IMG/VR virus record: IMGVR_UViG_3300021963_007290
Span: 38,867 to 102,866 of that record
Length of the DNA: 64,000 bases
Direction: 5' to 3' (one strand)
Source of the DNA: a virus
Below, piece by piece: positions 2,801-25,870 of the stretch (its first letter is position 1; the number at the start of each line of letters is the position of its first letter). A model generated the notes under the pieces. It saw only the letters and a list, made by a program, of their open reading frames with translations, searched no databases and was not told the origin of the DNA. Made by a program: the position numbers and the translations under genes.

Positions 2801-2833
2801 TATATATACTATAACTGATTTGCATAAAAGATC

Positions 2834-3556: not shown

Positions 3557-3558
3557 CC

Positions 3559-3741
3559 ATGTCTCACATGGATCTGGAGAATTACTTCAGATTAAATTTT
3601 GCCTTGATGCAGTTCCATAAATATTCTTTGACAGAGATTGAAAATATGATGCCTTGGGAAAGGGACATTTATGTAATGTTACTTGAAGATCATCTGGAAC
3701 AGCAGGAATTAGAGGCAAAGACTGGAAGAGGTAATGGCTGA
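3559..3741 (+). CDS. 51: Baseplate hub assembly catalyst gp51-like
   Basis: A 60-residue acidic, helical protein beginning MSHMDLENYFRLNFALMQF. It carries the segment KYSLTEIENMMPWERDIYVML and an acidic tail. T4 gp51 is a non-structural factor required for hub assembly; cyanophages have a similar small gene directly after gp26. Here it starts two bases after gp26 stops and its last eight bases overlap the start of the next giant gene (ATGGCTGA), which points to translational coupling. The helix-plus-PWERDIY pattern also resembles tail-assembly chaperones that sit just before tape-measure genes, which would suit the next gene. The two readings are not exclusive. Confidence 0.7.
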   Translation: MSHMDLENYFRLNFALMQFHKYSLTEIENMMPWERDIYVMLLEDHLEQQELEAKTGRGNG

Positions 3742-6700: not shown

Positions 6701-9613
6701 GGAAGGTTTAATCAAGTATCAAAAGATTTAAAAACTCCAAAACCAAAAGCAACTCCATTTACTGGTGTAAAATCTTCAGATTTTTATCAAGCAAATTCTC
6801 AAGCAAAGGAACAAAGTTTAGCAAATTTAACTTCACAAAAACGACTCGATATATTGAGCAAAGAAGGTGGTGGAGTTAAAACTGGAAGAGGAAAAAGATT
6901 TACTACAGAGAATATTGCCAAGGAAAGAGAATGGCAAGGTCGTGGTGGTATGCTTGGTGGAATTAAAAGAGGATTCCAATCTTTCTTTGGTGGTGCTGAT
7001 GCTCAAATTAGAAATTTAAAAGCAGATAAGGCATCAGCAGCAAGAGTAAGGCAAGCTGGTGCTGCTTCTATCGGTAGATACTACTCTTCTTCTGATGGTA
7101 AGTATTACAAGGATTATGATGCTGCACAAAAAGCAAGGCAAGCAAGATTAGCAGCACCACCAGTGCCGAAACCATCTTTTTCAAAACCAATTGGTACTGG
7201 TAGTAATGGTGGAATAACTAAACCAGTTGGGTTTAAACCAGCAGCTCCAAAACCAATTATAGCGAGACCAAAACCAATTGGTACTGGTAGTAATGGTGGA
7301 TTAAGTAAGCCAAAAGGGGGAATAAAGAAAAAAGAAGGTGGAGGATTAGTTGAAAGAAGCATTAGTGAGCAAATTAGATCTTTAAGGGGATTGAGAGCAG
7401 ATTCCTTAGAAAGGCAAGGTGAAACTAATAGTGCTTATGGATTGAGAGCATTTAATCTTCAGAAAGTATTTAAAAATTTTAATACTAATGATATTTTTAA
7501 AAAATCAAAATATTCATTTAATCTTAATGATTCATTTAAAAATTATTTTGATAAATCTAAAAATACCAATGAACAAAAGAAACCAAATCCATTTGGTCCC
7601 AATTTAGGATTAAATTTAAAACCGATAAAAACAAATTATCAATTAAGTAAGACATCAAAAAATAAAGATCTTACAAAAATTGCTTTTAATCCAAATACTA
7701 ATTTAAATAATCAGAAACCTAAAAGGCAATCAATATCAGACAGCCTGAAAGAACTTCGTGCAATGAGAGCAAGATCACTTGATAGGCAAGGTGATACATT
7801 GGGTGCATTAGGGGTAAGAGCATCTAATTATAATTTACCAAAAATTGATGCAAGTAAGTTAAAAGTAGATCCTAAAAAGGCTTATGGAAGTAATTTAAAT
7901 TTTGCAACTCCACCAGTAAAAGAATTGCCTAAATTTGACCTCTCAAAAGTATCGTCAAATGTTACTACATCATTTAAACCAACACCTTCTGCACCTTTGG
8001 CAGCACCTCCTCCCCCAAAAATAGATACTGCAACAAATTTGCCAGTTAAAACAACTACTGATGCTCCACCTCCCCCAAAAATAGATACTTCGGCAATACA
8101 AAAGAAAGCTGGTGGAGGAATAATTAATAAAGTTAAATCTGGGATAGGTGGATTTTTTAAATCAAAGGAACCTATCAAAAAAAGAGATGTTGTAAAAAAA
8201 GTTGCAGGAAAAGCAGTATCTAAAGGCGATGACATAAAAAGTAATCTTGAAAAAATTACTAATAAATCGAAAGAAAAAAAGAAAGGTTTTTGGGGAGGTA
8301 TATATGATACTGTCAGTTCAATTAACACTGGAGTAAACACTGCTAAAGCATTTGCTAAAAAAATAAATCCAATCAAAACAGCTAAAAATGCTGCTAATTT
8401 TATTGGTGGAAATATTAAAAACGTAGCAAATGTAGTTAGTAAAAAGGGTTCAAGTGTGCTATCTTCAGTGGCACAAAATCCAAAGATGCTTAAAGTTAGT
8501 GGAGCACTTGGTAAATTTGGTGGAAGAATGGTTCCTGGATTGGGTGTTGCGGCAAGTGCTGCTGATGCTGCTGCAAGGGCAGAAAGGGGAGATAAATGGG
8601 GTGCTGCTTTGGCGGGGTTGGGAGCTGGTGCCGGAGCTACAACCATAGCAACCTCTGGAGCAGCAGCAACGGGAGCTGGTGCTGTTATTCCAGCAGCTGC
8701 AGAGGCAGTGTCAATGGGTGCTGATGTTGCTTTACTGGGAAAGGATATATGGGATATAATGTCATCCAAAGAGAATACCGCATCTCCACAAAAAAATAAA
8801 GTAGAACTTAGTAAAATTCAGAGCAAAAGTTCCAAAGATTTGACAACATCTAAAGTTAACATGATGCAAGGTGGTGGAATCGTTAAACTTCAAGGTGGTG
8901 GAGAATTAAAATCGCCAGCAATTTCATCTGCTCCACTTCCTCCGACAATAGATCCTGCAACAAATTTACCAGTTGTAATGACTAATGATGCTCCATCTGT
9001 ACCACCCATTAAACCAATACAACCAAAACCGTCTACTCCATTAGCACCCATAAAAAAATCTGTAATGCAACAACAAGCAGATGAACTCCGTGCTATGAGA
9101 GCAAATTCAATGGAAAGGCAAGGAAGAACTTCCGAGGCTTATGGTCAAAGAGCATTTGGATCCAAAAAAGATTTTTCATCATTCTTTACACAAGGATCCG
9201 TAACAGAAAATACTGGTATGAATATGCCAGGAGGAACTGCAGATAGACAATTAACTGCATTACAACCTGGAGAATATGTAATTCCAAAACAAACAGTAAA
9301 TTCATTTGGTGGGGCAAGTTTCTTTGATAACATGGTTGCAAAAACGGATTCGGATTCAAATGCAGCTAAGTTAGGAGCAAAAAGTAAGCCAAACGTTGGG
9401 GGTGGCATTAAGCCATATCCAATAAATAATTCCAAGAAACCTCAAGTTACTAACTTAGGATCTGCTAAAGAAGCAAGATCTGGTGCTCAACTTTCTCAGG
9501 GAAGAACTCAAAATGGAGCATCTAAAGAAGTATTCTTTGAAGCACCTTGTCAGGAAGGATCTGCACCGTCCGAAAGACAGAGAATAATGGATCTCTTAGG
9601 GGTAAATAGCTGA
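3734..9613 (+). CDS. Giant tape-measure-like virion protein (1959 aa)
   Basis: Large Lys/Gly/Ala-rich protein of the tail module. Residues 1-160 are charged, with a P/K-rich linker. Residues 165-240 have a Cys-Cys pair followed by a coiled-coil-like, highly charged stretch. Residues from about 244 hold a hydrophobic block starting IKRFIVFTLLG and continuing with several membrane-like segments. The middle repeats G-GG-rich segments, and there are tape-measure-like motifs such as LKLRTGDAILTEKDQ and, near the C-terminus, LQPGEYVIPKQTVNSFGG. Three copies of an LRAMRAxSLxRQG repeat are present (from about 7358, 7735 and 9070). The CC and FTLLG elements recur in the next gene with nearly the same spacing. 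It probably sets tail length or fills the tube. T4 gp29 is only 590 residues and no clear alignment is visible by eye, so an unnamed structural protein is possible. Confidence 0.6.
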   Translation: MADSNPTTQLVDSRIVSLLGLQDDLELSHEDYFRSLKEAALAARMSDGKFSSEEVSLITEELKRVRKEDKNIKFQTEKKRAKAKPKTQKVSNKNTKKTPKSTTPRANTKVTTLSTFVQKQQQSPATEAPSASPPQATPTVPLLPQPKKKTVEVKEKKQKIKKEGCCEILGKKLTKIDSTLGSIFSTLKDQFSLRKKDSERERRGREKSGREDAENKLEKGSGIKEIVSTAKNLLSPFQDLFDRIKRFIVFTLLGKAFTMFMDWMKDPKNRQTFNTIVKFLTDHWVLIVGSYLLFGTKLGGFARTIGKLVVKLAVKAVFATGKLIAVLAKSKWGRVALAAGAVTAGAVAISQSGKKKDDKQDVESYADGGIIGGLGKALKFTPLGMAFEAGKHGAKAFGKGAKAVGKVASGATDFLGKGLKKSLDVATLPLTIGFKGLAGASEFLMNGLKSLDLFKLLAGPIQSITKKGGDKDPKLQAAGGIPGLIGTIVQKTSEGVGKNVKDSKKSKQEKKDKGAGYAKGGLINPLTMGLMGAVPGLGAFAPLLSPLLQSKKIGGDHGLPVSGAGKDDRLLKLRTGDAILTEKDQKQLSSGNFLEKFGGPIGAMASFFSGKKSGEETVVAAKRGEAVVTQEDQLNIFEKTGISIPSLLSGRKANKVSSDQLKTKSGKRLPGFFNGGIVEGFAGGGIVGGDAAYANQRYQELLQTTKKSTISSYNKKYGEGAYEKKLLAKLNKIHTGPDKSTKPKLPPVKTNDAYMKSVRERAGKGSSTLTVNGLRIFGAGKVLDKIKDVKTPDIKIEDVANKAQSKIKKLAAATKFGEMSAEQRADYEQAIAKEKVERDKILSRSKQKRSSDEGARKAFRDIFDNPDLKNSLHEKVAFGDMTYEQFKKVYYGKQSKAPAKGNKGYTPFKSKFAGARDAAHAKAKNITGEPKKGFGSKLRSILKFNPMIPLMGSIKTGLEYSPLGLSAKIAKRGLDTLGPLGASVGGWMQGRFNQVSKDLKTPKPKATPFTGVKSSDFYQANSQAKEQSLANLTSQKRLDILSKEGGGVKTGRGKRFTTENIAKEREWQGRGGMLGGIKRGFQSFFGGADAQIRNLKADKASAARVRQAGAASIGRYYSSSDGKYYKDYDAAQKARQARLAAPPVPKPSFSKPIGTGSNGGITKPVGFKPAAPKPIIARPKPIGTGSNGGLSKPKGGIKKKEGGGLVERSISEQIRSLRGLRADSLERQGETNSAYGLRAFNLQKVFKNFNTNDIFKKSKYSFNLNDSFKNYFDKSKNTNEQKKPNPFGPNLGLNLKPIKTNYQLSKTSKNKDLTKIAFNPNTNLNNQKPKRQSISDSLKELRAMRARSLDRQGDTLGALGVRASNYNLPKIDASKLKVDPKKAYGSNLNFATPPVKELPKFDLSKVSSNVTTSFKPTPSAPLAAPPPPKIDTATNLPVKTTTDAPPPPKIDTSAIQKKAGGGIINKVKSGIGGFFKSKEPIKKRDVVKKVAGKAVSKGDDIKSNLEKITNKSKEKKKGFWGGIYDTVSSINTGVNTAKAFAKKINPIKTAKNAANFIGGNIKNVANVVSKKGSSVLSSVAQNPKMLKVSGALGKFGGRMVPGLGVAASAADAAARAERGDKWGAALAGLGAGAGATTIATSGAAATGAGAVIPAAAEAVSMGADVALLGKDIWDIMSSKENTASPQKNKVELSKIQSKSSKDLTTSKVNMMQGGGIVKLQGGGELKSPAISSAPLPPTIDPATNLPVVMTNDAPSVPPIKPIQPKPSTPLAPIKKSVMQQQADELRAMRANSMERQGRTSEAYGQRAFGSKKDFSSFFTQGSVTENTGMNMPGGTADRQLTALQPGEYVIPKQTVNSFGGASFFDNMVAKTDSDSNAAKLGAKSKPNVGGGIKPYPINNSKKPQVTNLGSAKEARSGAQLSQGRTQNGASKEVFFEAPCQEGSAPSERQRIMDLLGVNS

Positions 9614-12600
9614 TGATAACGGCAATAGTAAGAGCAGGATCTGCAATTTCAAAAGGATCAAAATTACTACCAAGAAGTGCTGCTGCAAGTAAGCCCGTTT
9701 TAGCATCTAAATCCGTTAAGTTAGCACCATCATATCCTAAAGTAGATGCCCCTAAAAGGGGAAATGGATTGGTTAAAAGATTGCCAGATGCTTTAGATTT
9801 TGCTTCTTCTTTTGCATCTGCTTTTTCAGATCCTTCTGGAATTGATACTCCCAAGCAAAAGGTAAAAACAAAGAATTGCTGCGATACACTTGTCCCTTTA
9901 GTAGATTCCATATCAAAAAAATTAGTTGATATTGATAAGTTATTAAAGGATGAACTTAAATTTGATAGAAAGAATAGTGACTATCAAAGAAAGAAGAAAG
10001 AGAAGGGTCAATATAAAAAACAAGAAGAAAAATTAGAAACTCCCAAAAAAATAAAGCCAAAAGCAAAACTTTCTCCAGGCGTTCCTGGAATTTCTCTTGG
10101 AGAAAGGATCAAAAGGTTTGTTATGTTCACCCTTTTAGGGTGGTTGGTAGATAAAATATTACCTCTTCTTCCAAAATTAGTTCCAGTTTTTAATGCTGTC
10201 GGAAAAGTAATAAACTTTGGTGTTGAATTATTTGGTGGTTTAGTTAGTGGTCTGTCTAAATTTTTAGAATTTGGAATTAAATTAACCAATGGATTGACCA
10301 AATCTTTGGGATTCATTGCTGGAGCAAGAACAGAACAAGAGTTTTCTGACTTTGAAAAGAAATTTAATAGAATGGTTGATCTTGCAATCTTAGCAGCAAT
10401 GCTGATTGGAGATAGTGGTAGTGATCTTTTTGATGGGTTTGGTAAAGGTAAAGGTAAAGGGGGAAAACCATCGGCATCAAGACCAAAGCCTGGAACTGGT
10501 GGAAGATCTAAAGTAACTACAACTGGTGGAAAAAGTGCCGGTAGATTTGGTAGAATAAAAGAAAGATTTACCGATCCATTCAGACAAAAATCAAAAGTCA
10601 CTACAAGTGGTGGAAGACAAACTGGACTTGGTGGAAGAATAAAGGATCTTCAAGATAAGATAACTCGACCTACTGCGAAAGTCACTACAAGTGGTGGAAA
10701 AAACACGGGCATTTTAGGTCAAATAGGAGAACTTGGAAATAAACTTAAGAAAACAGTTTCTCCAACTAAGATAACTGGAGCATCAACAAAACCTGGATTA
10801 TTAAAAGGTGCTACAGAAGGGACACAAAAACTACTTGCATCTGCTAATAAAAGCAAACTTGTAAAAGGTGCGTCAAGTGTATTTTCAAAAATAAAAGTTC
10901 CTCCTGCTGTCGGTAGAGCTGCTGGTCCAGTAGGAACTGTTTTATTTGCTGGTGTTGAATTTGCTGGAAGAAAAGCATCCGGACAAACAACATCTCAAGC
11001 AGCAGTGGGAACTGGAGCATCAGTTGCTGGTGGTCTTGCTGGTGCTGCAGGTGGTGCTAAAGCTGGTGCTCTTGTCGGTGCTGCAATTGGTGCTCCATTT
11101 GCTGGTGTTGGTGCTGCCCCTGGTGCTGTAATTGGTGGAATTATTGGTGGAATTCTTGGTGGACTTGGTGGATCTTGGGCGGCATCAAAGGTTGCTGATA
11201 CCGCAACAGGTGCTAACAAAGCACAACCAAAACCAGTTGCAAAGCATAATGAGGGTGGTATTGTAAAAAATACACTTGATTTAAAAGGTTCTCTTCCAAG
11301 TTGGTTTGAATCTGCAAACAAAAAGAAAGCATCTACAAAATCATCAATTAAAATTAATCTTCCCAAAAAGAAGAAAGCACAATCTGAAAAACCAGGAAAA
11401 GATATTGGTGGATATGGAGAAATAACAAAATTATTCCCAGATCCAGAAGGGAAAGTTTCTGGAACAGGATCTTCTCAAGGAGGGTCAGCAATAACTTCTG
11501 CCGCACAGAAAAAGGCAGGATTTAATGTATTCAATCCCTTTTCATGGTTTTCTAAAGCTACTTCTGGACCAGCAGCACCAGCACAACCATCTCAAAGATC
11601 ATCTCAACCAAATGCATTATTTGCATTAACAAAGGCATCACAATCACTTAAGAAAATACCTTTTGTTGGTCATTTAATGGGTGCTTCTGTTGATATTGCT
11701 ATGGGACAAAAGCCAGATCGTGATCTTTATCAGACAATGGCAGATTCTGTATTATATCTTGGACAGAAAGCAGCAGAAGGACAAAGTAAAGATATACAAA
11801 CAAATATTCAAAAATTGGCTACTGGTGGAATAGCTTCTATCGCAGAGTCATCTTCATCAATAACTTTAGATTCTGAAAAGGTAGCAACTAAAACCTTAAG
11901 AGATAGTTTAGCTGGTGCTATTGAAATAGGTGCTAATAGTGCTCTCAAGAATGTGAAAGATGAAATTATTTCTGCTAATGTTAGAGGAAATACTTCTCTG
12001 ATCCCAAATAGTACTGAACCTAATAATAATTCTAATAGCACTTTCAATGAAAATTCTAATTTTGGATATGATGACTCTGAGGATTCATCCGGTGATGGTT
12101 CTGATGGAAACTATGATGATACTCCACATGGACAACCAGGAGGTGCGGTAAAAACATCATCTGGATTTAATGCTGGTAAGGGAGATAAGAGTAGAAAAAT
12201 ATTTTTACATTGGACTGCTGGACCACACAATACACCTTTTAGTAATTACCATACAACATTTTTGGGTAACGGTAGTGCTGTTAGATATACTCCTTATGAC
12301 AAAGATAAAGGAACTCATACTGGAGGAGCAAATACAAATTCAGTAGGTCTTTCTATTGCTGCAATGGGTGGAGAAGGGACAGGTCCAAATAATTTTGGAA
12401 AATATCCCCCAACATCTGCTCAAGTAAGTGCTATGGCACTTGAGGCAGCAAGATTAGCAGCTGCTTGGGGATGGGATGAATCCACGATTGATTCAAATAT
12501 AAAAACTCATGGAGAATGGGAAAGATTTGGAACTAGTACTGGAATTCTTTCTGGGAAACCACAAAGGTGGGATTTAGATAAACTTCAACAATCTGATCCG

Positions 12601-15600
12601 GCAAATAGTGGAGGAAATAAACTCCGCAAAATGATAAAGGGATATTTTAAAAAATTAAAGCAAGGAACCACTACCGACTCATCTACTGGAACTACTAAAG
12701 TAACTTCAAGTGGTGCTACTTTACGTGAGATGTCTTTATCATCTGCTATGGAATTGACTGGAGGGACTCCAAGAACCGCAGGAGGTAAACCAGGATCTGG
12801 TGGAAATATAAGTGAATCTAATAAAAAATTACTTAGCTTTATTTCTAAAGGTGAAGGTGGATATAACTCTATGAATAGAGGGGGTGCTGGAGATAGTCCG
12901 GGGGAAGCAAAAAAATATCTTGGAAGAAATTTAACTGAAATGACAGTTGCCGAAGTAATGGCGCACCAGGCAGCTGGTAAACTTCATGCTGCAGGAAGAT
13001 ATCAAATTATTGCAACTACCATGAAATTGGCAGTTTCAAGATCTGGGGTAGACAAGCAATCTAAATTTGATCCAGCAACACAAGATAGATTGGGATTGGC
13101 GTTGATTTATAATGGACAAAGACCAAAATTATCTGCATATCTTAATGGTCGGAGTAATGATATTAATGCTGCTATGTTGGATTTTGCTAAGGAGTGGGCA
13201 TCAGTTCCCGATCCTAGAACTGGCAAATCTTTTTATGGTGGAACCAATGCTTCTCATCATAGTGTAGAATCTGTTAAGCAAGCTTTAATATCGGCCAAAA
13301 AGGGAGGAGGGTCAAGGGGGCAAGATACTGCATCTGGATCAAACACTCCATCCGGACCAGTTCAAAAAGGTCAAATCGTCCAATGGTTGCATGGAAATCC
13401 AAATCGTAAGGGATACGATTATGCTGGGCATGGTACTGCAGACAATGCACATGATCACTTTAGCTTTAAGACAAGATCGGCAGCAGTAGCAGGATTCAAA
13501 GCATTGCAAAAATCTGGATTTAAACCTTATGAGTTTGAGGGATTTGGTAAAGTTGGGAAGCATTCACCAACTGGAGGTCATTTTGGTCCTGTTGGACAAA
13601 GACCAACTTATGATGATACTACTGATGGAACTGCTTTTGATATTCCTTGGGCAACTTATGGAAGTGGTCCAATTGGACCGAAAGATTATGCCAAATCAGA
13701 TCAAGCGGGTAAGATAGTAGGGGCAGCATTTCATGGATCAGAAGTTAAAAAAGGTGGATTATGGAATCTCCATGATAATGAATTTGTTATAGATAAAGAT
13801 ACTGTTGATTTATTTGGAGCAGATTTTTTCAGAGCAGTAAACGCAGTAGAAAATAAAGTGCAACTGCAAAAAGTATATCCAACATTAATTAGTAGAATAG
13901 AAGAATCCGCCAAAGGAAAGGCATATGTCAGACCAGAAGTTTCATATAATGAAAATACATCATCTGACATGTCTTTGGGATCTGCTTCTCAATCCAAACA
14001 AACAACGAGAGATCTTGAAACTTTCAATAAAGAAAAAGAAACTAACACTGAAGAATCTCAACAGAAAGATGATGAAAAGGAAGATAAAAAGAAACAAAAA
14101 GTACAAGTAACGTCAGCAAGTCACCCCCAAACTGGAAGTGGATTTGCAATTAAAGGAGTTACTGATGGTAATGGAAGACCTTTAATTCTTTCTAAGGGTG
14201 GAATAAAGGCATTTGGTGAAATGATGCAGGACTCAAAAGGTGCTGTAAAGGGATCTGATGTTGCAAGTGGGAAGAGAAGTCCTGCTCATAATAAAAAGGT
14301 GGGTGGAGTTCCGAATTCAAATCACTTGGGTGGAAATGCTTTAGATATTCATGGAACATCAGAACCATGGATGAGAAGGAAAGGTAAAGCATATGGATGG
14401 GTTGTCAATGATTATCCAGGGTCTCATGGTGGACACTTTGATTACAAAGGAGAAAATGCCGATGATTCTGGTGATACATTTGCTGCAAGATCTGCTGACG
14501 TTGTGGATGACTCTGTAACTGATTCTCCCCCCTCCGGTGGTGGTCCTTCTGGTGGTGGTCCTTCTGGTGGTGGTCCTTCTGGTGGTGGACGTTCCCTCGG
14601 AGGTTCTTCCCCTGAAGATGGATTTGTGGATGTTGATTCGGAACCATCAGAATCTTTAGTCCCTGGAGCACCAAGACCAAAAGGTGGCAAGTTTAGTCCT
14701 GCTGCACCAATGGCTAAGGGGGCAGTGGGAGTTGATGATAAATTATTTAAAGAACTTGGGGCAAGTTCTGAAGATTGGGATATATTTAGAAATACTGTAG
14801 CACATATTGAATCTAAAGGTGCTTATGATATTGCTGGAGGAAGTGGTGGGCATTATGATGGAAGATATCAAATGGGAGAAGATGCTAAAACGGATGCCGC
14901 AAAAGTACTTGGTATCCCAAATCCTGGGCATAGTGCGGCAGATAGGGCAGCATATAGAAGTAAACCAGAACTGCAAGAAAAAATGTTTGCGGCATATACA
15001 ATAGCAAATCATAGATATTTGATGAGAAATAAAGATTATAAAAATGCATCAGTTGAAAGAAAATTGCAAATTCTTGGATATGCACATAATCAAGGAATGG
15101 GTGGAGCAGAAAAATGGTTAAGAACTGGCGAAGTTGGTGCTGATGGGTTTGGAACAAAAGGCACAAAATATACTGATGCACTTGCTGCAAACTTTAAAGC
15201 AAGAGATAAAGCAATTAAAGATGGAACATACGGCAAAGATGATAAAGATAAACCAAGTGGTAAAGATGATCCAGGTTCTACGGGATCAATTGCTGCTGGA
15301 GATTATAGTATTGACACTAAAAATGAATTTTTAAAATCTGCTGGCACTGGAAAACTTAAGCATGGTCGTGCGGGTGATGGACTGTGTACATCAAATGTTT
15401 TATACGGATTGGATAAACTCGGGCATACTTTTGCACCACAAGGAACTGCAGGAGATTCTTCAAATCCGAGAGGATTAGTATCGCAATTAGTTGGAGGCAG
15501 TGGATTTACTTCAATTCCTGGATTGGGATCTGAGCAAACTATAGAGAGTCCTTATGGAAATGTAAAGGCAAGAGTCGTTCCTTTTAAAGATTATCAAGCA

Positions 15601-16254
15601 GCTGTAGAAAAGGGACTTATTCCAAGTGGTGCATTTCTTTTTTCAACCAGATATAAAAGTTGGAATCAACAAACTGGAGGATCTTCAGGATTTGATACAG
15701 CAATTGCCAGAGAAGGAGGAAGAATTGCTTGGAATGGAACTGGATCTCAAGGAAATGCAATTTATGGAGATGCCACTCAATCTGTTATTGTATTGGTTCC
15801 AAAAACAGCAATTAAAGAAAACAAAAAACCAGGAGAAGCAGCAAAACCGGGACAAGCAGCAAAACCGGGACAAGCAGCAAAACCGGGAGGAAAACCAGGA
15901 GCACCAGCAAAACCGGGACAAGCAGCAAAACCGGGAGGAAAACCAAAACAGAATTGGCTGCAATCTGCTGCAAGTAATGTTGCTGGTTTATTGACTGGAA
16001 AGAAAAAATTGGGGGTTATAAAGGCAGAAGGTGGTGGTCAAATAGATTCATCCGGAATTATTGCAAGACCAAAAAGTCCAGACATTGGGAAGTTTGCTTC
16101 TTATGAAGATCCATCTGGACCAGCACCACACATAATTATAGTTCCTTCACCAGCAAAACAATCATCACCCGAAAAACCAAAAGGATCACCTTCGTATTCT
16201 GGAGGTCCCAAGAAATCACCACAACAAGGATATAGTTCACGTAGGAGGTCTTAA
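9613..16254 (+). CDS. Giant tail protein with stacked cell-wall-hydrolase-like domains (2213 aa)
   Basis: The ATG overlaps the previous TGA. Residues 89-90 are Cys-Cys, then a charged coiled-coil-like stretch, then IKRFVMFTLLG (166-176), paralogous to the previous protein. About residues 460-525 form a Gly/Ala-zipper membrane-like segment. Domains then follow. (1) About 858-990: zinc amidase-like, with FLHWTAG (H866), H966 and D987. (2) About 1073-1180: lysozyme/transglycosylase-like, with GEGGYNS (E1081) and AAGRYQI. (3) About 1250-1355: unassigned, with HDHFSFKTR. (4) A tape-measure-like motif, LHDNEFVIDKDTV. (5) About 1530-1615: M15 peptidase-like, with H1571, D1578 and H1608. (6) About 1725-1845: transglycosylase-like, with E1733, GRYQMG and HNQGMGG. 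(7) About 1905-2035: cysteine-peptidase-like, with C1925. Low-complexity PSGGG and AAKPGQ linkers separate some domains. It likely helps the tail cross the cyanobacterial wall. Domain names are by motif only. Confidence 0.7.
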   Translation: MITAIVRAGSAISKGSKLLPRSAAASKPVLASKSVKLAPSYPKVDAPKRGNGLVKRLPDALDFASSFASAFSDPSGIDTPKQKVKTKNCCDTLVPLVDSISKKLVDIDKLLKDELKFDRKNSDYQRKKKEKGQYKKQEEKLETPKKIKPKAKLSPGVPGISLGERIKRFVMFTLLGWLVDKILPLLPKLVPVFNAVGKVINFGVELFGGLVSGLSKFLEFGIKLTNGLTKSLGFIAGARTEQEFSDFEKKFNRMVDLAILAAMLIGDSGSDLFDGFGKGKGKGGKPSASRPKPGTGGRSKVTTTGGKSAGRFGRIKERFTDPFRQKSKVTTSGGRQTGLGGRIKDLQDKITRPTAKVTTSGGKNTGILGQIGELGNKLKKTVSPTKITGASTKPGLLKGATEGTQKLLASANKSKLVKGASSVFSKIKVPPAVGRAAGPVGTVLFAGVEFAGRKASGQTTSQAAVGTGASVAGGLAGAAGGAKAGALVGAAIGAPFAGVGAAPGAVIGGIIGGILGGLGGSWAASKVADTATGANKAQPKPVAKHNEGGIVKNTLDLKGSLPSWFESANKKKASTKSSIKINLPKKKKAQSEKPGKDIGGYGEITKLFPDPEGKVSGTGSSQGGSAITSAAQKKAGFNVFNPFSWFSKATSGPAAPAQPSQRSSQPNALFALTKASQSLKKIPFVGHLMGASVDIAMGQKPDRDLYQTMADSVLYLGQKAAEGQSKDIQTNIQKLATGGIASIAESSSSITLDSEKVATKTLRDSLAGAIEIGANSALKNVKDEIISANVRGNTSLIPNSTEPNNNSNSTFNENSNFGYDDSEDSSGDGSDGNYDDTPHGQPGGAVKTSSGFNAGKGDKSRKIFLHWTAGPHNTPFSNYHTTFLGNGSAVRYTPYDKDKGTHTGGANTNSVGLSIAAMGGEGTGPNNFGKYPPTSAQVSAMALEAARLAAAWGWDESTIDSNIKTHGEWERFGTSTGILSGKPQRWDLDKLQQSDPANSGGNKLRKMIKGYFKKLKQGTTTDSSTGTTKVTSSGATLREMSLSSAMELTGGTPRTAGGKPGSGGNISESNKKLLSFISKGEGGYNSMNRGGAGDSPGEAKKYLGRNLTEMTVAEVMAHQAAGKLHAAGRYQIIATTMKLAVSRSGVDKQSKFDPATQDRLGLALIYNGQRPKLSAYLNGRSNDINAAMLDFAKEWASVPDPRTGKSFYGGTNASHHSVESVKQALISAKKGGGSRGQDTASGSNTPSGPVQKGQIVQWLHGNPNRKGYDYAGHGTADNAHDHFSFKTRSAAVAGFKALQKSGFKPYEFEGFGKVGKHSPTGGHFGPVGQRPTYDDTTDGTAFDIPWATYGSGPIGPKDYAKSDQAGKIVGAAFHGSEVKKGGLWNLHDNEFVIDKDTVDLFGADFFRAVNAVENKVQLQKVYPTLISRIEESAKGKAYVRPEVSYNENTSSDMSLGSASQSKQTTRDLETFNKEKETNTEESQQKDDEKEDKKKQKVQVTSASHPQTGSGFAIKGVTDGNGRPLILSKGGIKAFGEMMQDSKGAVKGSDVASGKRSPAHNKKVGGVPNSNHLGGNALDIHGTSEPWMRRKGKAYGWVVNDYPGSHGGHFDYKGENADDSGDTFAARSADVVDDSVTDSPPSGGGPSGGGPSGGGPSGGGRSLGGSSPEDGFVDVDSEPSESLVPGAPRPKGGKFSPAAPMAKGAVGVDDKLFKELGASSEDWDIFRNTVAHIESKGAYDIAGGSGGHYDGRYQMGEDAKTDAAKVLGIPNPGHSAADRAAYRSKPELQEKMFAAYTIANHRYLMRNKDYKNASVERKLQILGYAHNQGMGGAEKWLRTGEVGADGFGTKGTKYTDALAANFKARDKAIKDGTYGKDDKDKPSGKDDPGSTGSIAAGDYSIDTKNEFLKSAGTGKLKHGRAGDGLCTSNVLYGLDKLGHTFAPQGTAGDSSNPRGLVSQLVGGSGFTSIPGLGSEQTIESPYGNVKARVVPFKDYQAAVEKGLIPSGAFLFSTRYKSWNQQTGGSSGFDTAIAREGGRIAWNGTGSQGNAIYGDATQSVIVLVPKTAIKENKKPGEAAKPGQAAKPGQAAKPGGKPGAPAKPGQAAKPGGKPKQNWLQSAASNVAGLLTGKKKLGVIKAEGGGQIDSSGIIARPKSPDIGKFASYEDPSGPAPHIIIVPSPAKQSSPEKPKGSPSYSGGPKKSPQQGYSSRRRS

Positions 16255-16255
16255 T

Positions 16256-17611
16256 ATGCCTAATAATATTGCAGCTCAAGGTGGAGAATCTATTATAAGA
16301 AAGTTTGAAATTACTTCAAACTATAGTGAAGAACCAACTGACATTAGTAGTGGAATTACAAATTTATCAATTTTTGAAAGTATTTTTGATAGTACTATAA
16401 GAGTAAGTGCTACTTATAGTGATACGGGATATGGAAATAAAAAAGCAAACAGTGAAGAAACATTTAATAATAGTGCTGGAGAAAAAACAGAATTAGTAAT
16501 AGAAGATGCCTTTGGAAAAAAATTGGATTTTACTGGGGATTATCAACTTAGAACTGCCAAGAATGTTAGAGAGGCATATGGTGGAGCAGATACCACAAAA
16601 ACAACCATTAGGACTTTGTTTTATTCGCAAGAATCAATTACAAATAATTATGTAGAAAAAGATGGACACTATTATAGAGTCAGTAAAAAGTACGAACGAA
16701 AAATATCCGATAACGTTTCTACAATATTAAAAGATGTTTTAAAAACACCCAAGGAAGTAGATGTTGATCCATCAAAAAATGATTACAACTTTTTCGGATG
16801 GAACGAAAAAGTATTTCATAAAATTTATTGGTTAGCAAAAAGAACCGTTCCAGAGGGAGTGGGGGGGCAAGGAATTTTAGCTGGATATTTATTTTATGAA
16901 ACTGCAAAGGGAAGTGAAGGTACTCCAGGAGGATATCATTTCAAATCTATAGATCTTTTATTTTCACAAAGTCCAGTGAGAAAGATGATCTTGACAAATA
17001 CTAATGAAATTCCAGCAGGATATTCAAATAAAATATTAAATCATGTTGAACATACAAGTGTGGATTTAGATTCTCATCTCTTAACTGGGGACTTATTTAA
17101 AAGGAAAATGGAAACATTTAATCCTTTTGATAATAAATTTGATAATAGTGATGATTTTGATTTTCAATCTCAAAATTTAGTGACTAATAATGGAGGAAAG
17201 GAATTTTGGAAAATTGCTTCTGATATGAAAGCACAAGATGTTGTAACAAGTTATAACTCAAAGATGTTTGATACTGGAACTACACCAACTGGATCAACTT
17301 GGGAAGAACAAAAAAAAGAATCGAAGGAAATTAACTTTGATATGACGGAAATCATTCGTCAATCTACCAATAGAATAAATCAAATGTTAACTATTCAAAT
17401 GACTGTGGTAATAGCACTTGATCTTGGAATTCATGCTGGTGATATGATCTTTTTAGATTTTCCAGAAATATCAAATTCTGATACTCAAGAGGTAAGTAAG
17501 AACAAAAGTGGTATATATATGGTAATGGATATACATCATAGAATAACTGCTGAAGCAAATTTCACTTCTATTCAGGTTTGCAGAGATACTATTTACAGAA
17601 AGGGAGGTTAA
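16256..17611 (+). CDS. Baseplate hub protein, gp27-like
   Basis: A 451-residue protein preceded by a strong AGGAGG ribosome-binding site that lies inside the last codons of the previous gene. It begins with QGGESIIRKFEITSN and continues through beta-rich segments such as SGITNLSIFESIFDSTIRVS. The middle carries GYLFYETAKGSEG, then GGYHFKSIDLLFSQ, a pattern seen in hub proteins of the gp27/late-control-D type that form the ring above gp5. The C-terminus has a barrel-like segment (LGIHAGDMIFLDFPEI, then GIYMVMDIHHRI) like the second barrel of such hubs. T4 gp27 is 391 residues. The position just before gp5, with one small gene between, supports a hub role. The precise T4 name is inferred, so no symbol is given. 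Confidence 0.68.
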   Translation: MPNNIAAQGGESIIRKFEITSNYSEEPTDISSGITNLSIFESIFDSTIRVSATYSDTGYGNKKANSEETFNNSAGEKTELVIEDAFGKKLDFTGDYQLRTAKNVREAYGGADTTKTTIRTLFYSQESITNNYVEKDGHYYRVSKKYERKISDNVSTILKDVLKTPKEVDVDPSKNDYNFFGWNEKVFHKIYWLAKRTVPEGVGGQGILAGYLFYETAKGSEGTPGGYHFKSIDLLFSQSPVRKMILTNTNEIPAGYSNKILNHVEHTSVDLDSHLLTGDLFKRKMETFNPFDNKFDNSDDFDFQSQNLVTNNGGKEFWKIASDMKAQDVVTSYNSKMFDTGTTPTGSTWEEQKKESKEINFDMTEIIRQSTNRINQMLTIQMTVVIALDLGIHAGDMIFLDFPEISNSDTQEVSKNKSGIYMVMDIHHRITAEANFTSIQVCRDTIYRKGG

Positions 17612-17614
17612 CCA

Positions 17615-17827
17615 ATGGATAGTATAGAAGACCATATTCAAAAAGATAAAAAAATCTTAGACGATCCAACAACTTCTCCACAAAATCGTAGACATATTGA
17701 AGACGAATTGGAGCAGTTGGAATCATATCATGAAAAACATCCAGAAGATCATCATGATCCATCATCTTTAGAATTGTATTGTGACAAAAACCCAGACGCT
17801 TTAGAGTGTAGAATTTACGAGGATTAA
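17615..17827 (+). CDS. CP12-like small protein
   Basis: A 70-residue acidic protein. The C-terminus reads SLELYCDKNPDALECRIYED, which matches the C-terminal loop of cyanobacterial CP12: two Cys separated by eight residues around N-P, then ECR-[IV]-Y-[DE]-D. CP12 is the redox linker that ties up GAPDH and phosphoribulokinase and so turns off the Calvin cycle. Cyanophages are known to carry CP12 as an auxiliary metabolic gene. The central helix also fits (DELEQLESYHEKHPE in place of the host AWDxVEELxAE segment). The N-terminal Cys pair of canonical CP12 is absent. The gene sits between the gp27-like hub and gp5 with a GGGAGG site overlapping the upstream stop, and its last base is the first of gp5. 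A structural role is not excluded given this setting. Confidence 0.75.
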   Translation: MDSIEDHIQKDKKILDDPTTSPQNRRHIEDELEQLESYHEKHPEDHHDPSSLELYCDKNPDALECRIYED

Positions 17828-20800
17828 TGTCAAAAGGTCAATTACTGTCAAATGACACAAGTGGAATTGAATTAATGTACATGTGGTTTGGTCAAATTGT
17901 TGACGATTCCACATGGAGGGGCAATTCTGCAAAGGAAGATGGATGCCATACATTGAGAACCAGAGATGATTTTCAAGGATATGGGTATAGATATAAAGTA
18001 AGAATTTTTGGAAGAGATATTCCAGATAAAGATGATCCCCAAAAAGGAGTAACTGATGATCAATTGGTAATGGCAGAAGTTGCTATGCCGGTTACTGCTG
18101 GAAGTGGTCAGGCAGGTTCTACTCAAACTCCAAATCTTAGGCAGGGAAATTATGTATTTGGATTTTACAAGGATGGTGTAGACGCTACAGAACCAATCAT
18201 TTTTGGTGTTCTTCCAAATCATGCACAAACAAGATTATTTGGTGGAGATCCTGACAAGGGATTTGTGCCAAGGACTGGATATGTTGGAACAGCAGAATCA
18301 AAACCAGTTTCAAATAAAAATATTTTAGGCGAAGGTCCTGATGGAGGAAATCCAATTAGTGAATCGACAGGATCTAATTATGTTTTAGATGTAAGAGATA
18401 TTGACGTAAGAGACGAACAAAGAAAACATTATGTTCCTAAGACATATGATTGCGATACAAGAGGTGGTGGAAAATTTTCTGCCATTTCAAAAATAATTAA
18501 TGATTTGATGAAGTTTGTAAACAAGGTTAAATCTGCATCAGAAAGTTTTTTTGGAGCAATCTCAGATACAATTAATGGATTACAATCAATAATTGAGGAT
18601 GGTGCATTATTAATAGCTGATCTCATGAAAGGAATGATAGATCAGATGAGAGGGTTTGCCTTAAATCAAATTAATAAGGGATTTTCAGCAGTTCATTCTC
18701 TTTTGCCTCCGAATAAAACTTCATTTACAAATGAAACACTTAGAGTGGCAGTTGATTTATTATTATGTGTTTTTAATAAATTAATCAAAGGTCTTTTTGA
18801 TAGTGTTTTAAAACTACTTACGGATTTAGTCAATAAAGCAGCATCTATAGCTCAATGCGTTGTTGAAAATTTTTTAGGATCTTTACTTGCGGGTATACTT
18901 GGTCCTATTGGTAGTGCATTAGATTCTATTTCTGGACTTGTTGATGGAATATCATCCTCAATATCAGGTGTTCTTAGTGGAATATTCAGTGCATTAGATA
19001 CTATTTTAGGTATTTTAGATCTACTTAATTGTGATGAAAATTTAGATTGTAGTTCTGGTGATGGATGGAGTTTTTGGTATGGGGCAGATTTCCCAACTCC
19101 ATCTCCACCAAACTTTAGTGGTGCTATTCAGGGACTTGCTGAATTTCCGGACATTGGAGAAGCAGTTGCCTCTTGTTTTGACGGTCCACTTGCATCTGGA
19201 CCTCCAAAGGTTAAATTTAATGGAGGTGGTGGAACTGGTGCAACAGGAAATGCAATAATCGGACCAAATGGGGAAATACTTGGAGTAGATATACTTGATG
19301 GTGGAAATGGATATACTTCTTCACCTACCGTAACTCTTGAATCGGATAGTGGGGATGGAAGTGGTGCAGTTTTATATGCGGTATTGCAAGATGATAATAA
19401 TTTCCTTGGAGGACAAGGTGGATCTACAAGTAGAAATCCAACGGATGATGATTTATTGTCAAAACTAAAGAATGGGGGAATATCTAAAACTCCAACAAGT
19501 GTTAAAATAAATTCAAGCGGTCCTTTACTTGTAACAGATTCTGGACAACAAGTTTATGTCGGTGGAACTGGGGGAACAACTTTAACGGCATTTAATTCAA
19601 ATGTCTCTTCCAATTCACCTGGGGTTGTTGTTCCGAGAGGAAACAGATTTACTTACAATCAAGAACCAATAACCTTAAATTTCCTTACTGAAGTTACAGA
19701 ATCTGGAGATGGAAACGAAGTCAATACTAATTTTGGTCTTTTAAAAATTGGAAGTGTTGGTGGAGTTCCGGCAAGAGTTGGTGGAACTGACGGAAACGAA
19801 GTATTTTATGTTGATCCGAATTCAAATTCTTATATCGGAATACGAGTAAATGTTGAAGAACCATTATTTGCAAATATAGATCAACCAATTATTGCTGGTC
19901 CATATAAAGGAACCTTTGAAGGAGTTGGAACATATTCAAATGGATCTTTTGCCGGAACAGGTTTATTTAAAGCAAAAGATTCTGAAGGAAAAGACATAAG
20001 ATTAACTGGAAGATTCAGTGGATTTGATAGTTCTTTATCGGGTTACGGATCTGGAACCTTTACAGGAATTGGTACAATTGAAAACGGAAGGTTTGTTGGT
20101 GATGGAATTTTTATAGCCGATGTTTCAAAAATTATCAATCTTACAGGAAAAACTGTTGATGATGGAAATGGCAATATAACATCTCCAGATGGAACAAAAA
20201 TTATTATTAATCAAGATGGAACTGGATTAGTTACATATTCGGATGGAACTCAAAGATCTGTTGCTGTTTTAAAAGCAAATTCTACAAGTGGATCGGAAGT
20301 TACTTCTGGAAATTCTGGAATATTTGTTACTGTCCCAACTTCAACATCAGGAACTGGTGCTGCAGGAACTGGAACTGGAACTGGAACTGGAGCAACTGGC
20401 GTTAGTGGTGCAGAAATTGGAACGGGAACTGGTGCTACTGGTGCTGGTTCTGGTGGAACAGGAACCACTACTCAACAAGTATTTTCTGGTGGATATGGTG
20501 GAAATCTTATAAAATTGAGTACTGAAACTGGTTCTAATATAATACCAGTGACTACTGAAGATGGTCTTCCAGTCACTATAAATGGCATTCCTGTAGTAGT
20601 AGGTTCAAAAACTGGAATACCATTAGTCATTGGGGCAGATTCTGATAAACCACCAGCATCTGTTGATAGCATTCAACTAACATCAAATGGAAATGCTGTC
20701 AGATCACCAATTAAAGTTGGTGGAGTTTCGGAAGGTGTTATTTCAAAAGGATCTTTTGCCGGTCCAAATGGATCACCAGTTCAAGAGGTAATCGTAATAG

Positions 20801-21486
20801 ATTCTGGAGTTGGTTATTTACAGGCACCGGATGGAACAACATGTGGTTCTGGTGCTAAATTATCACCGGCAGATGGTACAATTATCTTTAATGAAAATAG
20901 TGGTTATAGTGTTTATCCGCCAAATAGTACTATACCAGTTTTAACTGGGGATCTTGCATATCTACCTCCACAAACTATAGCAGAAGTTTATAATTCTGAT
21001 GGAGATTTGTTACAAACACTTACTGGTCAAGGTCAGACAAACCCCGTTGTAATAGAAAATACAGGTTTGATTACAACCCCATCTTATAATATTGAGAAGA
21101 ATAAACCAGATCCAATAAATAGTCCAGTATCTGGTGGATCTTACTTAACTTTATTGACTATCAATGATGTATTAATAGCAAACCCAGGAATTAATTATTC
21201 TCCAGATGATAAAATAACAGTTACCCCAAACAATGGTACTATATTAACTCCAAAATATGATAAATTTGGTAGATTATCTTCTGTAGTAATAGAAAATCCG
21301 GGAATAGGATTTACTGAATTTCCAAATATTAGGGTTCAATCTGTCACTGGAATTAATGGATATATAATACCTATATTTGGAGTGGCAAGACGCGGAACAG
21401 ATGTGGCAGAATTTAGTGATGTAATTCAACCAAATGCACAACTTATCGAAGTTATTGATTGCGTAGGAAAATTTTCAAGGAATTAA
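17827..21486 (+). CDS. 5: Baseplate central hub gp5-like (OB-fold; no lysozyme domain)
   Basis: A 1219-residue protein. Residues about 14-140 form the OB-fold module of gp5: MYMWFGQIVDDSTW, then RYKVRIFGRDIPDKDD, DDQLVMAEVAMPVTAGSG, NLRQGNYVFGFYKDG and EPIIFGVLPN. These segments are typical of cyanophage gp5, which sits at the tip of the tail tube. Residues about 210-405 are strongly helical and hydrophobic (nt 18470-19030). Beyond this are beta-rich repeats of the G-x-GY...P-x-V type, a MORN-like stretch (nt 19900-20135), and a Gly/Thr low-complexity tract from tandem GGAACT units (20347-20475). No lysozyme catalytic motif is seen, unlike T4 gp5; wall cutting may be done by the giant protein at 9613. 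The expected spike is encoded separately by the next gene. It starts on the last base of the CP12-like gene. Confidence 0.85.
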   Translation: MSKGQLLSNDTSGIELMYMWFGQIVDDSTWRGNSAKEDGCHTLRTRDDFQGYGYRYKVRIFGRDIPDKDDPQKGVTDDQLVMAEVAMPVTAGSGQAGSTQTPNLRQGNYVFGFYKDGVDATEPIIFGVLPNHAQTRLFGGDPDKGFVPRTGYVGTAESKPVSNKNILGEGPDGGNPISESTGSNYVLDVRDIDVRDEQRKHYVPKTYDCDTRGGGKFSAISKIINDLMKFVNKVKSASESFFGAISDTINGLQSIIEDGALLIADLMKGMIDQMRGFALNQINKGFSAVHSLLPPNKTSFTNETLRVAVDLLLCVFNKLIKGLFDSVLKLLTDLVNKAASIAQCVVENFLGSLLAGILGPIGSALDSISGLVDGISSSISGVLSGIFSALDTILGILDLLNCDENLDCSSGDGWSFWYGADFPTPSPPNFSGAIQGLAEFPDIGEAVASCFDGPLASGPPKVKFNGGGGTGATGNAIIGPNGEILGVDILDGGNGYTSSPTVTLESDSGDGSGAVLYAVLQDDNNFLGGQGGSTSRNPTDDDLLSKLKNGGISKTPTSVKINSSGPLLVTDSGQQVYVGGTGGTTLTAFNSNVSSNSPGVVVPRGNRFTYNQEPITLNFLTEVTESGDGNEVNTNFGLLKIGSVGGVPARVGGTDGNEVFYVDPNSNSYIGIRVNVEEPLFANIDQPIIAGPYKGTFEGVGTYSNGSFAGTGLFKAKDSEGKDIRLTGRFSGFDSSLSGYGSGTFTGIGTIENGRFVGDGIFIADVSKIINLTGKTVDDGNGNITSPDGTKIIINQDGTGLVTYSDGTQRSVAVLKANSTSGSEVTSGNSGIFVTVPTSTSGTGAAGTGTGTGTGATGVSGAEIGTGTGATGAGSGGTGTTTQQVFSGGYGGNLIKLSTETGSNIIPVTTEDGLPVTINGIPVVVGSKTGIPLVIGADSDKPPASVDSIQLTSNGNAVRSPIKVGGVSEGVISKGSFAGPNGSPVQEVIVIDSGVGYLQAPDGTTCGSGAKLSPADGTIIFNENSGYSVYPPNSTIPVLTGDLAYLPPQTIAEVYNSDGDLLQTLTGQGQTNPVVIENTGLITTPSYNIEKNKPDPINSPVSGGSYLTLLTINDVLIANPGINYSPDDKITVTPNNGTILTPKYDKFGRLSSVVIENPGIGFTEFPNIRVQSVTGINGYIIPIFGVARRGTDVAEFSDVIQPNAQLIEVIDCVGKFSRN

Positions 21487-21489
21487 AAT

Positions 21490-22173
21490 ATGGCGATAGA
21501 TATTGCAAGTCAAAAAAGAAGACCTTCTTCAGGGGCAAAGTGCAATCCTGAGCATGTTGTTTATGGAACTAAAGATGGGCAAATAGAATTTGGAAAACTT
21601 CATTACGGGTCAAGTTCTTCATTAGAATCTGATGTAACTTCTGGCGTTTATTTGCAGGCATATGATTCAAGACATTATATGTCCATGGACATTGATGGAG
21701 TCAGAAAAGGATGGACATCTTTTAGATCTCCTGGACCTCATCAAATATGGTGTGCATCTGATGATGCAGGAACTCCAAACGCAAGCGTAACATCTGGCAA
21801 TTGGCCCGGAGCAGGGTTTTTTCTTTTAGCAGAAAATGGTGATATAATTATTCGTGCTCCTAAAGGTAGAATTCGTATGTCCGCAATGGACATAGATATA
21901 AGAGCAGAAGGTCCAGATTTGACAAAGGGTTCTATAAACATTGATTCAAATGAATCCGTAAATATTAAAACTGGAAAATTTGATGTTAAGGCAAATAAAG
22001 GTCTTACCATGTTTACTCCGAGAAATTTGGAATTAGCAACAAATACTTCTCTAAATTTTGTTGCTAATTTTACTTGTGGATTGACAGCAGCAACTCAATA
22101 TAAACCAGATAAAGAAAATTTAGTTACAGTTTTAACATATCCGATGAAAAGTAATTATACTCCCTTTGGTTAA
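21490..22173 (+). CDS. Spike-like virion protein (gp5 C-terminal / VgrG-needle type)
   Basis: A 227-residue protein following gp5 by three bases. The second half reads as short regular strands rich in alternating I/G/D: NGDIIIRAPKGRIRMSAMDI, then SINIDSNESVNIKTGKFDV and GLTMFTPRNLELATNTSL. Regular 'G-x-I-x-I-x-A' strands are how triple-stranded beta-prism spikes look (T4 gp5 C-terminal helix; VgrG needle region). The N-terminal part has a conserved-looking segment with YLQAYDSRHYMSMDIDG and SFRSPGPHQIWCASD. I infer it forms the membrane-piercing tip attached to the gp5 trimer, so that gp5 of T4 corresponds to two genes here. A general structural protein is the alternative. Confidence 0.62.
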   Translation: MAIDIASQKRRPSSGAKCNPEHVVYGTKDGQIEFGKLHYGSSSSLESDVTSGVYLQAYDSRHYMSMDIDGVRKGWTSFRSPGPHQIWCASDDAGTPNASVTSGNWPGAGFFLLAENGDIIIRAPKGRIRMSAMDIDIRAEGPDLTKGSINIDSNESVNIKTGKFDVKANKGLTMFTPRNLELATNTSLNFVANFTCGLTAATQYKPDKENLVTVLTYPMKSNYTPFG

Positions 22174-22200
22174 TACATATTATAATCTATTATTTAAATT

Positions 22201-23022
22201 ATGGGACACGCAGTAGACGACTTATCAGCATCTCATCAGGTAACTTGTGGGGCTGGGTATCCATTCACATCCCTTCTTCTTGGACCTGCAAAAATTAGAG
22301 GATCAAGTTATATTGAAGGTCCATCAGTATTTGGTAATCCTAATATATGGCCAAATGTTTGGGCAACTGTAATGATTGGACCAAATACCAATTTAGATTC
22401 GCCACCAACATTTGCTCCAGGCGCCATGTGCTGGGGTGGTCCAGCAATTAACAATCCATATTCTTTAGCAACTATTGGAAACTCTGGTTTCTTTGGTAGT
22501 GTTGATGTTGCTGGAAATATGTGTACACAATTTAACGTTATTGCACAGGGAGAAGTTGTTTCCAGATGTGGTGCTCACATTCTTTCGTTAAAAAAGAATT
22601 TTGACATTACACATCCAACTAAAAGGGGTTGGAGATTGAGACATACTTGCCCAGAAGGACCAAGCAATGATGTTTATATTAGAGGGCAAGTTAGAAGTAA
22701 AGATTACATTGACCTCCCAGAATATTGGAAAGGTTTAGTTGATCATACAACCATTACAGTTAATCTTACTCCTATTGGTGCCCATCAAGATGTAATTGTA
22801 AAAAGAATTGGTGAAGATAAAGTTTATCTTCAATCGAAAGGAGGTATGCCAATTCATTGTTTTTATCATATTTACGGCGAAAGAAAAGATGGGGAAAGAT
22901 TAATTCCAGAATATCAAGGAGAAACTCCTGCAGATTATCCTGGAAATAATGAAGAGTACTCTATTGTTGGATGGAGTTACGATAAGAGAGAAAAAGATTT
23001 CACCAATTTAAGGAGAGCATAG
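22201..23022 (+). CDS. Virion structural protein, tandem paralogue 1
   Basis: A 273-residue protein. The N-terminal half is Gly/Pro/Asn-rich (PAKIRGSSYIEGPSVFGNPN) and resembles spike or tip proteins. The C-terminal half holds a domain with KKNFDITHPTKRGWRLRHTC, then EGPSNDVYIRGQ, IDLPEYWKGLVDHTTITVNL and TPIGAHQD. The same domain makes up most of the next gene. A related pattern (NFxIxHPxx...LxHxxxExPE...Y.G...LPxYF..L) is widespread at the ends of phage fibre proteins and in bacterial surface proteins; its function is not known to me. Strand and spacing place it in the gp5/spike operon, so a baseplate tip or short-fibre role is likely. Confidence 0.6.
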   Translation: MGHAVDDLSASHQVTCGAGYPFTSLLLGPAKIRGSSYIEGPSVFGNPNIWPNVWATVMIGPNTNLDSPPTFAPGAMCWGGPAINNPYSLATIGNSGFFGSVDVAGNMCTQFNVIAQGEVVSRCGAHILSLKKNFDITHPTKRGWRLRHTCPEGPSNDVYIRGQVRSKDYIDLPEYWKGLVDHTTITVNLTPIGAHQDVIVKRIGEDKVYLQSKGGMPIHCFYHIYGERKDGERLIPEYQGETPADYPGNNEEYSIVGWSYDKREKDFTNLRRA

Positions 23023-23024
23023 TC

Positions 23025-23651
23025 ATGTCATTTTCTTCAATGAGTCCAAGAACAGATGCAAAGGCTAATTGTAGACCTAAGCAACCATGGACTATTCCAT
23101 TTGGAAGTTGGGCAAAACCCCTCCTCCCTTATACTGGAGACGATAATTTAAAGTTTAATCCTTTTACGGGTTGTCCTTTATATTGGCACAATTATATGTA
23201 CGTTACAGACCTTAAATGGTCTGGTGGTATTTTGTCTGCAAAAGGACGTTTTTGGGATTCTAAAAAATCTTTTGATATTCCTCATCCAACAAAAGATGAG
23301 CATCGTTTAAGATACATTACCCTTGAAGGTCCAGATGCTGAGGTTTATTATCGAGGAACTTTAAAAGATAATTCCTACATTGAGCTTCCAGATTATTGGA
23401 AAGGTTTGGTAGATGAAGAAACTATTGGTGTGACTTTAACTCCAATTGGTGTCTATCAAGAATTATTTGTAGAAAGAATTGAATGGGGATCGAGAGTCAA
23501 GATTAAAAATAATGCTGGTGGTCCAATCCATTGCCATTATGTTGCCTATGGTATTAGAAAAGATACTCCTAAAAATATTCCAGAGTATCCAGGCTTGACA
23601 CCAGATGACTATCCAGGAGATAATAAAGAATATAATATTAATAGTATTTGA
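23025..23651 (+). CDS. Virion structural protein, tandem paralogue 2
   Basis: A 208-residue protein that starts two bases after its paralogue. From about residue 78 it shows KKSFDIPHPTKDEHRLRYIT, then EGPDAEVYYRGTL, IELPDYWKGLVDEETIGVTL and TPIGVYQELFVERI, matching the domain of the preceding gene almost block for block, including the closing GGPIHCHYVAYGIRKD and PEYPGLTPDDYPGDN. The N-terminal part differs (CRPKQPWTIPFGSWAKPLLP). The pair arose by duplication with exchange of the N-terminus, or diverged strongly there. The TGA stop overlaps the ATG of the oxygenase gene (TGATG), suggesting coupled translation. Confidence 0.6.
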   Translation: MSFSSMSPRTDAKANCRPKQPWTIPFGSWAKPLLPYTGDDNLKFNPFTGCPLYWHNYMYVTDLKWSGGILSAKGRFWDSKKSFDIPHPTKDEHRLRYITLEGPDAEVYYRGTLKDNSYIELPDYWKGLVDEETIGVTLTPIGVYQELFVERIEWGSRVKIKNNAGGPIHCHYVAYGIRKDTPKNIPEYPGLTPDDYPGDNKEYNINSI

Positions 23652-25862: not shown

Positions 25863-25870
25863 TATAAATA
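25863..25870 (+). promoter_or_regulatory. T4-type late promoter
   Basis: Exact TATAAATA, 24 bases upstream of the ATG of the 94-residue gene. It starts two bases after tRNA-Leu(UAA), so the small gene can be switched on late independently of the tRNAs. Confidence 0.72.

Follow-up and report, generated by a model that had tools for sequence, protein, structure and literature searches.

Classical CP12 forms a GAPDH/CP12/PRK complex (PMC3906501). The proteins of Thermosynechococcus (6gfo) and Arabidopsis (CP12-2, 6kez) are of this type, with an N-terminal Cys pair, an AWD_VEE region and a C-terminal GAPDH-binding segment. Marine picoplankton are an exception among cyanobacteria, having no classical CP12, and phage CP12 proteins are similar to the C-terminal part of CP12 (review, PMC3906501). 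In cyanophages, the positions of talC and cp12 are variable (including «near gp5») and often close to tRNAs (Sullivan et al. 2010, PMC3037559). Annotations of S-WAM2, S-SSM7, S-RSM4 and S-SCSM1 show the order hub gene T4-GC15, cp12, gp5. In Syn9, P-SSM3, P-SSM4 and S-SZBM1, cp12 is also at the hub, with cpeT or other small genes before gp5. In P-HM1 it lies directly upstream of talC.

The DNA analyzed here (the window, 64,000 nt) belongs to a 102.9-kb virus record. Since psbA (85% identity to P-HM1) is present in this record too, together with a psbD-like gene, the phage infects cyanobacteria. A search of the record for talC, made without positive control on what is possibly a fragment, found none. 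The features of the cp12 locus are the following, with coordinates of the window:

1979..23651, + strand: co-oriented run of tail/baseplate genes containing cp12, with gaps of 33 nt at most (ORF map, motif scan)
16256..17611, + strand: gp27-like tail/hub gene of 451 aa, counterpart of cyanophage T4-GC15 (phrog_350 «tail protein», 2.4e-54)
17602..17607, + strand: GGGAGG within the final codons of the upstream hub gene; it likely serves cp12 as ribosome-binding site (from sequence)
17615..17827, + strand: cp12, 70-aa CP12-family protein (Pfam PF02672, E=1.7e-14; PDB 6gfo, E=2.7e-7)
17762..17824, + strand: C-terminal 21 residues (SSLELYCDKNPDALECRIYED), corresponding to the CP12 peptide that binds GAPDH in 3zdf/3b1j (aligned by phmmer with 3zdf_C and 6gfo_E)
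17819..17822, + strand: GAGG within the final codons of cp12; it likely serves gp5 as ribosome-binding site (from sequence)
17827..21486, + strand: gp5, baseplate hub subunit and tail lysozyme, 1219 aa (phrog_1922, 4.8e-71)

The PHROG matches confirm both neighbours of cp12 named in the initial annotation. The overlapping ends that it described hold at the 3' end, where the cp12 stop and the gp5 start overlap as TAATG (17825-17829, 1 nt shared), and not at the 5' end, where a gap of 3 nt separates the hub gene from cp12. Elsewhere in the 1979-23651 run, PHROG matches point to the tail tube, the baseplate hub and a hub assembly catalyst.

An ORF with a CP12 loop had been placed at 17615-17827, and this is exact. 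It starts with ATG and encodes 70 aa (MDSIEDHIQK...YCDKNPDALECRIYED; full translation of the + strand, MDSIEDHIQKDKKILDDPTTSPQNRRHIEDELEQLESYHEKHPEDHHDPSSLELYCDKNPDALECRIYED), i.e., an acidic protein of 8.4 kDa. Cys56 and Cys65 have 8 residues between them, with N59-P60 inside, and are followed by the ending ...ECRIYED. They form the CP12 C-terminal pair (Y/F)C..NP...EC.(V/I)Y(D/E)D, invariant across the fetched members. A scan for C..[NEH]P...EC found this motif a single time in the six frames of the window and in none of 50 shuffled windows. The Pfam match (54.8 bits) is above the curated cut-off of PF02672 (22.7 bits); it had been foreseen over the C-terminal 40 residues and extends in fact over residues 2-69. 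The PDB sequence matches are CP12 chains only, 6gfo being the best and the GAPDH-bound peptide 3zdf being included. A profile built from 24 phage and host sequences retrieves the same seven PDB CP12 sequences, with 6gfo aligned end to end. On these sequence grounds (Pfam match, CP12-only PDB matches and a motif absent from shuffled windows), the window protein is a true CP12 and chance resemblance is set aside. Its status as a cyanophage auxiliary metabolic gene is supported by Pfam, PDB and the phage grouping in the tree described below.

An AlphaFold2 model (input of 24 sequences, phage-database rows left out) has helices at residues 4-16, 22-41 and 51-58, with a mean pLDDT of 91. Its best PDB fold match is 6gfo_F, full-length CP12 with GAPDH, although this match is weak (E=0.038, prob 0.92).

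No Cys is found before residue 56, thus the N-terminal Cys pair of classical CP12 is absent, as had been reported. The AWD_VEE core motif is absent too, IEDELEQLES without Trp being found at that place. The resemblance to the classical proteins therefore bears on the C-terminal GAPDH-binding segment, together with the whole-length alignment to 6gfo in the profile search. The initial annotation took the missing pair as a loss by the phage. A phage-specific loss is ruled out, since the CP12s of picocyanobacterial hosts equally lack the pair. An N-terminal Cys was found neither in any phage locus nor in any of 74 genome-derived loci outside the hub slot, and the C-terminal pair is present in all; it must be noticed that these genome loci were fetched by the C-terminal motif pattern, which biases them towards the C-terminal-pair-only form, and that they include one phage contig (L190, psbA adjoining cp12). 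In a whole-genome profile search, three Prochlorococcus genomes have a single CP12 each, of the C-terminal-pair form, and one Cyanobium genome has a second one.

The window protein shares with the CP12s of Prochlorococcus, marine Synechococcus and Cyanobium: (i) the C-terminal Cys pair only, without AWD_VEE; (ii) the conserved DP, E53, C56, P60, E64, C65 and Y68. Its N-terminal half is spaced differently. In a tree of 107 rows (75 columns, inner order weak), host CP12s form one group apart from the phage rows (100/100, 28 rows). The window protein groups with the phage rows, and the lone other «host» row is the phage contig L190. As judged from host loci, genome profile search and the review cited above (PMC3906501), the phage carries CP12 of its hosts' kind, i.e., the picocyanobacterial form (C-terminal pair only) found in all fetched loci.

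This bears on the idea that phage CP12 is a decoy, which would compete with host CP12 and part GAPDH from PRK, leaving the Calvin cycle active or redox-insensitive. The missing Cys pair and AWD_VEE motif are both linked to PRK-containing complexes (PMC3906501) and agree with it. However, the CP12 of the hosts is itself of this reduced form, therefore the phage copy is no truncated antagonist of a fuller host protein; moreover CO2 fixation falls during infection (PMC5082946, PMC10452541). A decoy is thus highly improbable.

The reading that we hold very probable is that of a cyanomyovirus cp12 auxiliary metabolic gene of picocyanobacterial type, inserted at the hub, inhibiting host GAPDH and transcribed mainly late with the structural operon. 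The C-terminal helix and the disulfide-capable tail of CP12 would enter the active-site region of the host photosynthetic GAPDH (Gap2), and Gap2 would be inhibited. NADPH would then be spared and carbon diverted into the pentose phosphate pathway, where it would serve nucleotide synthesis. From its sequence, the window CP12 is predicted to bind GAPDH; its binding to PRK is expected to be reduced or absent because it has neither the N-terminal Cys pair nor AWD_VEE. By analogy with the CP12 family, GAPDH inhibition and a shift of carbon into the pentose phosphate pathway may be inferred. In the literature surveyed, no binding or inhibition experiment on this or any other phage CP12 was found, and the comparison of S-RSM4 with S-PM2 is confounded by other genes.

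The location is one of the usual ones and not, as first thought, an unusual one, since the isolate annotations and Sullivan et al. 2010 (PMC3037559) already show the hub slot. The homologue search gave 372 phage records with a CP12 homologue (one place each). Of 174 phage-type loci, 137 lie at the hub (cpeT being present in 24 of these) and 9 adjoin talC; the other 28 have another position or are on contigs whose length does not allow a decision. All 174 were chosen by similarity to the window and P-HM1 proteins, thus 137/174 is no population estimate. Cyanophage CP12 T4-GC337/63, annotated «carbon metabolic regulator» (P-SSM4 PSSM4_018, S-SSM7 SSSM7_015, S-RSM4 SRSM4_226, S-SCSM1 SSCSM1_216), is of the same family and length class, occupies the slot after T4-GC15 and before gp5, and has no N-terminal cysteines. 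The window CP12 differs from isolate phage CP12s by its sequence (76% identity at most) and belongs to the tight-gap subset without TAAATA upstream. The talC-adjoining CP12 of P-HM1 is of the phage CP12 family (63% identity to the window CP12), but lies among other metabolic genes and has TAAATA in its upstream region. The find is therefore largely ordinary: a well-known cyanophage gene in one usual place, common to many related phages. On the whole, the initial annotation stands for a CP12 auxiliary metabolic gene between hub genes and falls for the unusual place, the phage-specific Cys loss and the virion part (see below). With the window gene, it is confirmed that many cyanomyoviruses stably carry a regulator of carbon fixation inside their tail operon.

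In the tree, the hub, talC and other positions are intermixed, the hub label needing 17 changes, thus cp12 moves between sites. The gp5 region is a known insertion hot spot (PMC3037559), with cpeT and a tRNA in Syn9, and a decaying passenger gene could be expected near gp5 and tRNAs. Nevertheless, the window ORF is intact with good translation signals, the motif cysteines of CP12 are invariant, and dN/dS is about 0.20 for hub-located cp12 as a class, i.e., well below 1, which makes a decaying passenger extremely unlikely. Purifying selection on cp12 is clear and strongest at the C-terminus (dN/dS falls from 0.26 in residues 1-46 to 0.11 in residues 47-70).

A second question raised by the location is whether CP12 was co-opted as a virion or baseplate-hub component, either structural or carried in and injected. 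The gene lies between two hub genes, is translationally packed with gp5, and many of its operon neighbours encode virion proteins. However, in phage B23 the homologues of the two hub genes (42-43% identity; 42% between the window gp27-like hub protein and B23 gp11) lie only 24 nt apart, and the whole 243.6-kb record of B23 contains no CP12, therefore the hub assembles without CP12. In the virion proteome of S-SZBM1, the flanking products S-SZBM1_65 and S-SZBM1_61 are detected and S-SZBM1_64 (CP12) is not listed; it must be noticed that an acidic CP12 of 8.4 kDa gives few tryptic peptides and that some hub proteins are also undetected. In the GenBank notes of S-SCSM1, the nearby gp5 and lysozyme genes are «virion protein» and CP12 is unmarked, as is the hub protein just upstream of it. 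The freedom of cp12 to move between hub, talC and other sites, as well as the constraint being strongest on the GAPDH-binding end, also stand against co-option. The suggestion of a CP12-derived virion part is thus unsupported and is set aside, on the basis of the empty site of B23 and of proteomes with the neighbours but not CP12: a virion role is unlikely, and co-option as such a component is judged highly improbable. That CP12 in or on the hub enters the cell with the DNA and blocks host GAPDH before phage gene expression is barely credible.

For targeted mass spectrometry, suitable peptides of the window CP12 are KILDDPTTSPQNR.

Cyanophage late promoters are given as NATAAATA (PMC2984593). 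The hexamer TAAATA is found 15-48 nt upstream of phage cp12 in 85 of 122 distinct upstream regions, and in 2 of 70 for host cp12. By place, the values are 44/81 (hub), 16/16 (hub with cpeT), 6/6 (talC) and 19/19 (other). For comparison, it is found at 5/83 gp5 starts in hub loci, 23/66 hub-gene starts and 2.2% of random stretches. Fisher tests are strong, but ignore relatedness among loci. Among hub loci, TAAATA is missing where the gap does not exceed 18 nt, as in the window (3 nt). The full T4 consensus TATAAATA was also tried upstream of hub cp12 and rejected, being at chance level only (5/160), while the shorter TAAATA core is enriched. A new, modest observation is thus that phage cp12 usually travels with a late-promoter-like TAAATA, and that a tight-operon subset, to which the window belongs, does without it.

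The window cp12 has no late promoter immediately before it, given the 3-nt gap and the absence of TAAATA within 300 nt. Within the 1979-23651 run, the motif scan found no TAAATA-type site between genes. Lacking any promoter-like site and being translationally packed with the hub genes, the window cp12 is expected to share the transcripts of the structural operon. Late expression with the hub genes, as first proposed, is a reasonable inference from this packing.

TAAATA is not in itself a proof of late timing, because talC-located cp12 also has it (6/6) and the P-HM2 cp12, a relative of the P-HM1 gene, falls in the middle transcript cluster, being highly transcribed in light infection (PMC5082946). 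In the literature surveyed, transcript timing of cp12 was found for P-HM2 alone, where the gene is in the middle class and not in the late one. Early and late promoters that overlap may drive middle transcription in cyanomyoviruses (PMC2984593). The question of timing is thus that of the middle cp12 of P-HM2 versus the tight-operon copies (window, S-SCSM1, S-SSM7), which have little or no room for their own promoter. If they do differ, carbon-fixation shutdown would come later in some phages than in others, which bears on carbon-flow models of infected picocyanobacteria.

Elsewhere in the window, intergenic TAAATA is found at 25865, 26653, 41709, 50948, 52461, 52650 and 58440, with ORFs 26-64 nt downstream, many of which are large and likely structural genes. 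These sites (25865-58440) are likely late promoters.

Within the tail operon, a middle stretch of about 460 residues in the window gp5 is absent from B23 gp12 (L249:6951-9251), and portions of this stretch have matches among the «virion structural» and «head closure» PHROG families. The adjacent ORFs 22201-23022 and 23025-23651 match the same PHROG families (phrog_17490, phrog_28536), thus they look like a tandem duplication.

Three observations concern other contigs. (i) The viral contig IMGVR_UViG_3300006345_000684 has two different CP12 genes (L118:2678-2905 and L118:8428-8655), while isolate phages have one copy; a copy of the same small gene lies upstream of each, which suggests a duplicated module. 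(ii) Contigs filed as Euryarchaeota, Anaerolineales and Rhodopirellula (L165-L169, L171) have cp12 in a cyanophage hub neighbourhood, with gp5 in L165-L169 and cpeT in L171; they are cyanophage contigs binned into wrong genomes. (iii) A contig of 189 kb that is filed under the Prochlorococcus single cell AG-418-C09 (L190:1740-3801) has psbA and a phage-type cp12 in a row that continues with an oxygenase-like gene and a glutaredoxin-like gene; it is probably a cyanophage genome caught in a Prochlorococcus cell.
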